A stretch of DNA of 64,000 bases from Thermoplasmatales archaeon E-plasma. Lineage in GTDB: Archaea > Thermoplasmatota > Thermoplasmata > Thermoplasmatales > Thermoplasmataceae. How positions within the stretch are numbered: position 1 is the first letter of the stretch; the number at the start of each line of letters is the position of its first letter. This document shows positions 22,105 through 49,214 of this stretch, piece by piece. The notes beneath the pieces were generated by a model, which was not told the DNA's origin, did no database searches, and saw nothing but the letters and a program-made list of their open reading frames with translations. The position numbers and the translations under genes were made by a program. The stretch is taken from positions 186,001 to 250,000 of the forward strand of contig KI542674.1 in NCBI GenBank assembly GCA_000496135.1, written 5' to 3'.

Positions 22105-23091
22105 TCAAAACTTATTAAATTCATAGCCACAATTCTGGCAGACAAGGTCTTCTGATCGACTTCCCCTTATTAAAAATGCGGAATGCCCACAGTTTGGGCA
22201 CTTCCCATTTATCCAGATCGGCTTTTCTTTCCCTATTTTTTTTTCTACGACTGGTTTTTGCTGAACTTCGTTTCCCCCATTATCCTTATGATTGTTTGGA
22301 ATTAGAGAAAATAATTGCAAAAAACCTGCTAAAATAAGGATAAATGTTAGAAATATAAACGGAATTTCCAGAACCCCGAAAAAGGAATATGCCATAATAT
22401 CGGTTTCCAGAGGAACTAAAGCCCCAAAAGTGCCTATCACTGGCCCTTTTGCCATAAACAAAATTGAAACCGCGTAAAACAATAGATAATATTGAATACC
22501 TTCGACCAGTGTGTTCGACCAAACTATGTCTGAAATCAAAGCGATGGGAAGTGATATTATAAAACTCTGGCGGATGTTAAGTGTTCTGTAAAACAACTTT
22601 AATCCTGTTCCCGATCTCTTATATAAATTCAAAAAAATATATATAACAAGGGGTGGAAGCACTGAAATAAATCCAATATAACTTGTCCAGATTGAGTAAT
22701 ACAGAGCATAATCAAGATTATTAAAGCCTTTTATTGTGGAAGAAGCTGATGGGACCAGGTAATACGAAACACTTATTATGAAAAATTCCACAAGAAATAG
22801 TAAGGATGAAGCTTTGAACCCATTATTCGGTAATGAGCCGCTATTTTCTTTAGAATCCATTATATAAAATAGTAAACTAATGACAAAGACTGGTGCCATC
22901 AATAAAATCAACAACAATGATATTCCTCTGCCGATGGTAAAAGGCAAATTATTGTTCAATAGAGTGAGATGAAGTTTATAGTGCCCCACTAATAATTCAA
23001 AAACGAAAAAAACTGCAGAAAGAATAATTAAGGCAAGTGCTGTGATGAAAATATATTCTATTGCTCTTTCCTCTGTATTCTTTTGATTCAA
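22105..23091 (-). CDS. Polytopic membrane protein with C-terminal zinc ribbon
   Basis: A 328-residue protein with about eight membrane helices (residues ~10-260) followed by a charged linker (NNHKDNGGNEVQQKP) and a zinc ribbon: CPNCGHSAFLIRGSRSEDL and VCQNCGYEF. A cytoplasmic ribbon on a membrane protein suggests a sensor, an assembly factor or a redox-linked function; I do not recognise the family. It ends convergently with the MFS-like gene and diverges from the next small membrane gene. Confidence 0.65.
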   Translation of the reverse strand: MNQKNTEERAIEYIFITALALIILSAVFFVFELLVGHYKLHLTLLNNNLPFTIGRGISLLLILLMAPVFVISLLFYIMDSKENSGSLPNNGFKASSLLFLVEFFIISVSYYLVPSASSTIKGFNNLDYALYYSIWTSYIGFISVLPPLVIYIFLNLYKRSGTGLKLFYRTLNIRQSFIISLPIALISDIVWSNTLVEGIQYYLLFYAVSILFMAKGPVIGTFGALVPLETDIMAYSFFGVLEIPFIFLTFILILAGFLQLFSLIPNNHKDNGGNEVQQKPVVEKKIGKEKPIWINGKCPNCGHSAFLIRGSRSEDLVCQNCGYEFNKF

Positions 23092-23140: not shown

Positions 23141-23791
23141 GTGCCAAAGCTAGAGCAAAAGAAAATTACCCCGGCTGCTAGGTTAAAAGTGTCTATTTTA
23201 AAGCGGATGAAGGATAAATTCTATATTGTAGCTATAATATTTATCATAGTGGGGATTCTGGTGTTGAATGTCTCTTACATTGAACCTAAACCGTATAGAG
23301 ATTACGTTCTTGATAATGTTTATTCAATAAACATAACAAATAAAACTAATTTTTATTCAAATAGCTTTACCGTAGGAGGACAATTTTTTTCTAATATTTC
23401 ATTCTCCGATCCAAACGGAACCCCGTTTACCTATAGACTTTTTTATATGGCATATTACAGGAATGCGACAAACATTCCAGTAGTAAAAAATGAGACTTTT
23501 CAGGAACAAACTCTGGATCAGACAAACTATACTTCACCCATAAACACAAAAGGCATATCATATACTCTGTGCCTGATAATAACGACAAATGCTCCTCATT
23601 TACACGTTGTTGTAACTGAACTAAGTTGGTTCATAACGAGGAATCAAAGCAATCTCTTCCTTGATGAAATTGGGATACCTTTCATTGTTGCAGGAGTTGC
23701 AACTATTGTTGGAAGATTAAGTTATAACACGTCATCAAGAACAAAGGAAAAGAACCTGACAAAGGGGGAGAGAGGTAATAAAGTAAATTAA
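23141..23791 (+). CDS. Hypothetical membrane-anchored protein
   Basis: A GTG-started protein of 216 aa. A basic N-terminus (about 27 residues) precedes a membrane helix (FYIVAIIFIIVGILVLNVSY). The middle ~140 residues are rich in Asn, Thr and Tyr, as in archaeal extracellular domains, with many N-x-S/T sequons. A second helix (IPFIVAGVATIVGRL) and a basic tail end it. The layout suggests an outward-facing domain held by two helices. I do not recognise a family. It diverges by only 49 bases from the zinc-ribbon membrane gene. Confidence 0.6.
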   Translation: MPKLEQKKITPAARLKVSILKRMKDKFYIVAIIFIIVGILVLNVSYIEPKPYRDYVLDNVYSINITNKTNFYSNSFTVGGQFFSNISFSDPNGTPFTYRLFYMAYYRNATNIPVVKNETFQEQTLDQTNYTSPINTKGISYTLCLIITTNAPHLHVVVTELSWFITRNQSNLFLDEIGIPFIVAGVATIVGRLSYNTSSRTKEKNLTKGERGNKVN

Positions 23792-23807: not shown

Positions 23808-24521
23808 CTAAGCAAGAGTTATAATAACTCTTTTGCTCACTTTACCCTTAACTAATGTAGTTTTGAAATTAACAGTACCTACTTCTGATGTGTTTCTAAC
23901 ATGTGTCCCGTGATCAATCTGGTAAGGCAGTTCCCCAATTTTTACCAGTCTTATATTTGGGAAATCTGGTACATTTCCCCTTGAAATGGTCATCAAATCA
24001 GTGTCTGTTAGTATGGAATTTCTATCCCTGTATACAAATTCAACATTAACGCCCTTTTTTATTATCTCATTAGTTTCCATCTCAATTTTTTTTACAATTT
24101 CTTCATTAATTTCAGGAATCTCCAAATCGACCCATGCCTGGTCATCGTATGTCTGGTTTATCCGGTTAGCCGCTTTATAATCTCTGTAAGCAATACCGGT
24201 TATAATTCTCAGAGCAGTTCTAAACTTCATGTGCCCATATCTAACAGACCAGTCGATATACTGCTTTACATCTTTTCCCTTTATATTTTCTGGATATGTG
24301 TCATGTGATATTAGATGAACACCAGTACCATCATTCCAGGTATCGATAATTTCATATTCCTTCCCTTCTATGACTATTTTTCCTCTGTCGTTTGGCTGTC
24401 CCTCCCCAGTAGGGAAGAAAACAGAATTATCCACTATTAAGTCTGTAAATTCATTAAATATTACTTTTCCGGTAGCTTCTTTTAAGTAATTGTCTTCCAG
24501 ATATGCTAATTTTGTATCCAT
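23808..24521 (-). CDS. AlaX-like trans-editing protein with altered zinc site
   Basis: A 237-residue protein of the AlaX family, which deacylates mischarged tRNA-Ala. The N-terminal domain has FFPTGEGQPNDRG, equivalent to the usual FYPxGGGQPxD. The editing domain is recognisable, but the zinc motif HxxxH is RTALR and the second motif, usually CGGTH, reads IDHGTHVRNT. Both His and probably the Cys are thus missing and only the last His remains. The protein may use other ligands, work without zinc or have another role. It sits between two unrelated genes. Confidence 0.78.
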   Translation of the reverse strand: MDTKLAYLEDNYLKEATGKVIFNEFTDLIVDNSVFFPTGEGQPNDRGKIVIEGKEYEIIDTWNDGTGVHLISHDTYPENIKGKDVKQYIDWSVRYGHMKFRTALRIITGIAYRDYKAANRINQTYDDQAWVDLEIPEINEEIVKKIEMETNEIIKKGVNVEFVYRDRNSILTDTDLMTISRGNVPDFPNIRLVKIGELPYQIDHGTHVRNTSEVGTVNFKTTLVKGKVSKRVIITLA

Positions 24522-29468: not shown

Positions 29469-29631
29469 AGATAAACATGAAACCACAGCTATTTAAGTTT
29501 GTTCTAAATTTAATTATTATTGATCAGATTTACCTAAAATATCATTGCCATTTACAACATTTTTTTGCTGTTGAGCTATTCTAAATAGAGTGGTTTGATA
29601 TAAAAACAAATGGTGATAACTTTATTTAAGA

Positions 29632-29704
29632 GGCCGGGTCCGGGAATTGAACCCGGGTCCGGGGATCCACAGTCCCCAAGGATAACCCCTACCCCAACCC
29701 GGCC
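29632..29704 (-). tRNA. tRNA-His (GTG)
   Basis: A complete cloverleaf on the minus strand. The acceptor stem is GCCGGGT/ACCCGGC, preceded by an encoded extra G (position -1, base 29704) that pairs with C73, the histidine identity element. The anticodon arm is GGGGA-CTGTGGA-TCCCC with anticodon GTG, and the T arm ends with GGTTCAATTCC. CCA is not encoded (TCTT follows). No intron is present. Confidence 0.96.
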
Positions 29705-48389: not shown

Positions 48390-49158
48390 TGAGCTGAAAT
48401 ATGACAGGAGCGTAAAAGCTTATACAGTTTTAAGCACAAGACCTGCTGAAAAATTTATACCAGATATTGGAAAGTATCATTTTAATCTTATAAACATTCC
48501 ATTGACGAAATTAATAAGAAGAAATATGGATGCATCCCAGATAGACAAAATAAAGAAATTTGATCCTGATGTCATAATTCTAACCAGCAGCTACGGATCG
48601 GAAATTTTTCTCCATGATCTCTGGGACAATATAAACCAAAGAGATAGAATGTTTATCGCCATTGGTGCTTCCACCGCTGAACCCCTCATAAAAGTAGGAA
48701 TTAAAACCTGTATTCCTGAGAATAAAAGCACTGAGGGTATAATTGAATTCCTGAAGAAAAAAATTCCACGAGAATTGAAGATAATGATTTTGAGAAGCAA
48801 TAAGGGTAACCACGCTCTTAACGAGTTTCTAAAAACAGATAATAGGGAATTCACCGAGTTTGTCCTCTATGACATATTGGAGAATATGGAAAACAGGGAA
48901 AAATTACTGAAGTGCTTGAAGACACTCGAGGTGAAGGCCATATTACTTACCTCTTCTATGGAAGCGAGCATATTCTTTAAGATACTAAGAGAGGATAATT
49001 TTAAAATTCAAAATCAAACTCTAATTTATGCCATAGGAGAACCGACAAAAAAGACCATAATAAATTCAGGATATACGGGAAATATTCTAACAGGGAACTC
49101 CAGTTTTAAAAAGATTCTTGATGATATGAACCGGAATAATAGCGGGGAATGGATTTGA
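48379..49158 (+). CDS. hemD: Uroporphyrinogen-III synthase
   Basis: A two-domain protein of about 259 aa with weak overall conservation, as usual for HemD. It shows VLSTRPAEKFIPDIG at the start, DVIILTSSYGSEIFLHD, AIGASTAEPLIKVGI and, in the second domain, ILLTSSMEASIFFKIL and IYAIGEPTKKTIINSGY. ATG 48379, within the hemC end, is the best start. The final six codons overlap the 3' end of the initiator tRNA on the other strand. Confidence 0.9.
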   Translation: MRDNELKYDRSVKAYTVLSTRPAEKFIPDIGKYHFNLINIPLTKLIRRNMDASQIDKIKKFDPDVIILTSSYGSEIFLHDLWDNINQRDRMFIAIGASTAEPLIKVGIKTCIPENKSTEGIIEFLKKKIPRELKIMILRSNKGNHALNEFLKTDNREFTEFVLYDILENMENREKLLKCLKTLEVKAILLTSSMEASIFFKILREDNFKIQNQTLIYAIGEPTKKTIINSGYTGNILTGNSSFKKILDDMNRNNSGEWI

Positions 49159-49214
49159 ACCATCGATCTACGGGTTATGAGCCCGTCGGGATTTCCTAAC
49201 TACCCCACCCCGCT
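49140..49214 (-). tRNA. Initiator tRNA-Met (CAT)
   Basis: A 75-base tRNA on the minus strand. The acceptor stem AGCGGGG/CCCCGCT has the A1-U72 pair, and the anticodon stem has three G-C pairs next to the loop (GGG-CTCATAA-CCC). Both are marks of archaeal initiator tRNA. The T arm contains GGTTCAAATCC. The discriminator is A, CCA is not encoded, and no intron is seen. It overlaps the hemD stop region by 19 bases. Confidence 0.95.

Follow-up and report, generated by a model that had tools for sequence, protein, structure and literature searches.

The window, the whole stretch of 64,000 nucleotides that was analyzed, carries at positions 23808 to 24521 an open reading frame (ORF) related to the free-standing tRNA-editing protein AlaX-M and to alanyl-tRNA synthetase (AlaRS). 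The ORF, its motifs, and the neighboring genes to which we refer below are as follows.

22105..23091, minus strand: multi-TM protein with a C-terminal CxxC...CxxC zinc ribbon; related, though diverged (E=5e-24), to the gene that adjoins the paralog in most family genomes
23141..23791, plus strand: small membrane-type protein between the paralog and the membrane gene; an ORF weakly related to it (E=2e-8) occupies the equivalent place in six other genomes, which belong to another genus
23808..24521, minus strand: AlaX-M paralog lacking the zinc site; 237 aa, ATG start, homologous to AlaX-M and AlaRS
23901..23918, minus strand: IDHGTH, residues 202-207, corresponding to (A/S/P)DGGTH of the lineage; D203 is acidic in 68/68, H207 is kept in 7/67
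23925..23927, minus strand: P199; Pro in 66/68 paralogs, Asp in 47/47 canonical AlaX-M
24132..24134, minus strand: W130; Trp in 68/68 paralogs, Arg in 47/47 canonical AlaX-M
24162..24164, minus strand: R120; Arg in 68/68 paralogs, Thr in 47/47 canonical AlaX-M
24207..24221, minus strand: RTALR, residues 101-105, in place of HxxxH; R101 in 68/68 orthologs
24381..24407, minus strand: GEGQPNDRG, residues 39-47, a glycine-rich motif whose G41, D45, and G47 are common to both groups

Only two tRNA genes were found in the window, tRNA-His (29630-29704, minus strand) and tRNA-Met (49140-49214, minus strand).

A profile search matched the 237-residue product to the AlaX-M model NF040865 with an E value of 2.1e-51 and 174.9 bits, with residues 3 to 236 aligned to positions 1 to 233 of the 234 in the profile, i.e., with the full-length architecture of AlaX-M. 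The score is lower than the curated cut-off of 300 of that model. This cut-off is a strict test since just 17 of 400 class genomes pass it and many other canonical sequences fall below it; the canonical AlaX-M of genome G097 is above it, with 325.2 bits. The tRNA_SAD domain (PF07973) was also recognized in the window protein, at 30.1 bits for a gathering cut-off of 24, while the G101 ortholog reached 15.3 bits only and the G097 ortholog was absent from the tRNA_SAD matches at E 0.1. Solved AlaRS and AlaX chains were likewise found to be homologous to the ORF in a search of structures. Taken with the homology to the AlaRS editing domain, these matches bear out the AlaX-like identity proposed in a sequence-only reading of the locus. 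Two orthologs of the same genus, 95% (L001, from G072) and 85% (L002, from G070) identical to the window protein, carry the same motif residues, and a sequencing error is therefore unlikely. An AlphaFold prediction of the window protein, made with three sequences, had a mean pLDDT of 34.7, too low for the model to be used.

The four zinc-ligand positions (101, 105, 203, and 207) were compared with those of canonical AlaX-M from the same order, represented by 47 sequences from 44 genomes (L034-L063, L104-L119, and L121; three genomes contribute twice). The canonical proteins differ at one ligand from better-known relatives: aspartate replaces the zinc-ligand cysteine in all 47 sequences fetched (ligands HHDH, motif DGGTH). 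CGGTH is the motif in Pyrococcus AlaX-M and in the solved AlaRS chains. The quartet of the window protein is R101-R105-D203-H207. The sequence-only reading, which took CGGTH as the usual motif, counted three of the four ligands as lost; this number stands against Pyrococcus, but against the protein's own lineage only two are missing. Because aspartate is normal at the cysteine place in the AlaX-M of this order, the loss of the cysteine cannot serve as an argument for lost deacylation. The other motifs were read correctly, with RTALR at residues 101-105 in place of HxxxH, IDHGTH at 202-207, GEGQPNDRG kept at 39-47, and HVRNT kept at 207-211.

The replacement of HxxxH extends to the whole set of orthologs. 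Position 101 is arginine in 68 of 68 sequences and position 105 is never histidine, being Phe in 23, Lys in 18, Arg in 17, and Tyr in 10. Position 203 is always acidic (36 Asp, 32 Glu). The [C/D]xxxH pair, present in the window protein as D203 and H207, is seldom complete elsewhere, since position 207 is occupied by Gln (19), Asn (18), Tyr (10), Leu (9), His (7), Asp (3), or Val (1), with one gap, the last histidine being lost in 60 of 67. All 68 paralogs thus fit the pattern R-[FKRY]-[DE]-x, versus HHDH in 47 of 47 canonical proteins. Glutamate at 203 occurs with Lys or Arg at 105 in 32 of 32 sequences and aspartate with Phe or Tyr in 33 of 36, a pairing that is strong in counts but amounts to only two or three substitution events when placed on the tree. 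With the loss of HxxxH real and fixed in 68 of 68, it is sensible to infer that the paralog would no longer carry out the known zinc-dependent hydrolysis. A new set of ligands, also suggested earlier, finds no support for the clade, as the only extra candidate, H204, occurs in just 3 of 68 sequences and H207 is missing from most; a clade-wide metal site was rejected because no conserved set of His or Cys exists among the 68 sequences.

Apart from the ligands, few positions separate the two groups cleanly. At a 95% threshold, with 68 paralogs and 44 canonical AlaX-M, exactly four sites are fixed to differing residues (H101R, T120R, R130W, and D199P), while 15 positions hold the same fixed residue (>=95%) in both groups. 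The editing half of the protein holds all four swapped sites: position 101 is itself a zinc ligand, 199 lies four residues ahead of the next ligand, and 120 and 130 are C-terminal of the HxxxH helix in sequence. Judging from sequence position, these four residues may share one pocket in space, and we read the newly fixed residues as the likely signature of a rebuilt site rather than of decay.

We next consider how widely the divergent paralog is distributed. The search covered 117 genomes of the order, 77 from the family of the window and 40 from other families. Most genomes of the family contain two AlaX genes, and the paralog was found in 70 of the 77, as a full or near-full gene in 68, split over two contigs in one (G042), and cut at a contig end in another (G071). 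It is present in 35 of 35 family genomes with a completeness of at least 90%. Seven family genomes, 62 to 86% complete, gave no paralog-level match, four of them (G050, G092, G107, and G109) being judged by score only; they include both g19 genomes, whose AlaX sequences (L117 and L119) are canonical. No paralog-level match was obtained in the 40 genomes of the other families, where the best identity was 39%, and HHDH is present in the AlaX of the 16 of these 40 genomes from which sequences were fetched. A profile built from the paralogs was run against 400 class genomes and found paralog-level matches in the family only, with family members at 203 bits or more, fragments included, and other AlaX proteins at 186 bits or less. 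In 292 phylum genomes, it yielded 28 matches at E 1e-56, every one inside the family; the order, class, and phylum samples overlap each other. A scan of viral contigs found no relative of the paralog. In a phylogenetic analysis, the paralogs formed one clade with moderate FastTree support (0.742) and a long stem of 0.77, and a single clade was also recovered in an IQ-TREE run without support values. With so distant a root as AlaRS, the place of the duplication on the tree is uncertain.

The paralog is under purifying selection. The window gene and its G072 ortholog gave a dN/dS of 0.022. Synonymous sites were saturated in seven of 11 paralog pairs, and dN/dS in the remaining four ranged from 0.009 to 0.044, values that are rough for the two pairs with a dS above 1.6; three canonical AlaX-M pairs ranged from 0.037 to 0.079. 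A recent decay into a pseudogene is ruled out by the low dN/dS and by an ORF that is open in 68 genomes.

The explanation that we favor, and consider reasonably probable, is that of a neofunctionalized, zinc-free, and probably nonhydrolytic AlaX paralog, whose zinc site was lost and rebuilt and which would bind an RNA end or an anionic ligand. AlaX-M would have been duplicated long ago, one copy subsequently losing the zinc site. R101 and the acidic residue at 203, joined by Lys or Arg at 105 where 203 is Glu, could replace the zinc by a salt bridge, and R101 together with R120 would turn the old pocket into an anion-binding one. As a first guess, this pocket would receive the 3′ end of tRNA, or else another anionic ligand, without hydrolysis. 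The protein would then be a binding or adaptor protein, perhaps acting jointly with the adjacent membrane zinc-ribbon protein; cleavage of mischarged tRNA has probably been given up for another task.

The strict fixation of new residues in the editing half and the purifying selection would also suit a metal-independent hydrolase acting on another substrate (aminoacyl-tRNA or ester), in which R101, R120, T124, and W130, with the shared Y125 and D132, would make up a different active site. A similar His/Cys motif is found in the related editing domain of ThrRS, which is reported to have been crystallized without zinc at that site, so that this fold can hydrolyze without metal. However, the ThrRS editing motifs have no conserved counterpart in the paralogs, in which histidine is absent from 101 and 105 in 68 of 68 sequences and present at 207 in 7 of 67. 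One ThrRS report names HxxxH and DxCRGPH as important for editing (PMC4787780). We regard a new hydrolase as unlikely.

The neighborhood of the paralog offers a possible partner. The membrane zinc-ribbon protein encoded at 22105-23091 (minus strand) is fast-evolving, conserves its four C-terminal cysteines, and accompanies the paralog in most family genomes. Its gene is encountered a short way downstream of the paralog in 66 of 68 loci: 60 have it in the same orientation, five in the opposite one, and L093 in broken frames recognized by profile. The ORFs are separated by 0 to 39 bases in 40 of the 68 loci and by 702 to 864 bases in nine, the window included. In the five loci with a gene on the opposite strand, all from g15, the distance is 253 to 589 bases. 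The two remaining loci are L086, which ends at a contig end, and L002 of G070, where the membrane gene is on another contig, a true exception within the window's own genus. Genome G115 has the membrane gene and no paralog was found in it. Of the 68 loci, at least 42 also have folC as a neighbor of the paralog, and 30 or more have an MFS gene, both counts being lower bounds with just 1.5 kb of flanks for 27 loci.

As a more specific proposal, which we put forward only tentatively, a family-wide system can be imagined in which a zinc-free, nonhydrolytic paralog with an Arg-lined pocket would capture aminoacyl-tRNA or tRNA ends and act with the membrane-embedded zinc-ribbon protein, the editing fold having become a membrane-linked adaptor or sensor of tRNA. 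Somewhat more doubtful than either this system or a new hydrolase is the absence of any tRNA role, the AlaX fold being reused for a small anionic ligand or a protein partner together with the adjacent membrane protein; this is a narrower case that overlaps with the reading we favor. It draws on the frequent presence of the membrane gene downstream and on the short gaps, and the gene is turned around in the five g15 loci, yet stays close. It is further in line with the acidity of the paralogs, whose mean net charge and pI are -8.8 and 5.11, compared with -6.0 and 5.85 for canonical AlaX-M; this difference counts against the reading we favor insofar as it gives no support to stronger RNA binding. 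On the other hand, gene order in the family is partly conserved anyway, as the retention of folC and MFS indicates, and this general conservation explains part of the link. In addition, the linkage is broken in G070, and outside the family, proteins more weakly related to the membrane protein are encoded in class genomes where no paralog was found.

The genus of the window differs from most of the family in its set of editing genes. No canonical AlaX-M was found in its four genomes (G000, G070, G071, and G072; 83 to 96% complete) by NF040865 and tRNA_SAD searches. NF040865 matched only AlaRS, the paralog, and a 673-aa ORF that we take to be ThrRS, and tRNA_SAD returned nothing beyond these matches. 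The AlaRS of the window's genome retains HHSSTH and CGGTH, and editing in cis, with the clearing of Ser- and Gly-tRNA-Ala, is thus presumably still in place. Since the genus keeps the paralog without canonical AlaX-M, a mere helper or heteromeric partner of AlaX-M is unlikely. It is highly improbable that D203, H204, H207, and perhaps H97 form a new metal site restoring AlaX activity in this genus: AlaX-M is indeed missing there and both H204 and H207 are present in three of three full-length members, but R101 and R105 still occupy the site, H204 is confined to three of 68 sequences, all from this genus, and H97, found in 30 of 47 canonical AlaX-M, is therefore not a new ligand.

The paralog shows that selection has maintained a proofreading fold throughout a family even though its metal site was lost, with defined new fixed residues, and that one genus retains only the zinc-less copy. 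Since the paralogs score well on the AlaX-M and tRNA_SAD models, they might be labeled in databases as enzymes of alanyl-tRNA editing, probably a mistake for the clade as a whole. Literature searches, judged by titles and abstract openings, found no paper on a zinc-less AlaX of Thermoplasmatales.

Among known systems, the paralog is homologous to the AlaRS editing domain over most of its length, but unlike the AlaRS of the same genome it is free-standing and lacks both HHSSTH and CGGTH. It shares W91, R94, M98, D132, E213, G215, K225, G226, and R231 with the AlaX-M of the order. Its length, full-length alignment, and glycine-rich motif are those of archaeal AlaX-M (NF040865; Pyrococcus horikoshii 2e1b), from which it differs in the absence of HxxxH, in the poor conservation of H207, and in T120R, R130W, and D199P. 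By analogy, the AlaX-like domain (AXD) of Plasmodium falciparum TrpRS comes nearest as a precedent (PMC3680381). There, all four zinc ligands are replaced, their places being held by Asp, Ser, Asn, and Val; the domain is part of the N-terminal region required for tRNA binding, and its authors assign it a role in tRNA binding, not editing (PMC3680381). Like this domain, the paralog is an AlaX relative without the zinc ligand set. The AXD is fused to TrpRS and nearest to the short AlaX type, whereas the 237-residue protein, with no TrpRS catalytic domain attached, is free-standing and of the archaeal AlaX-M type.
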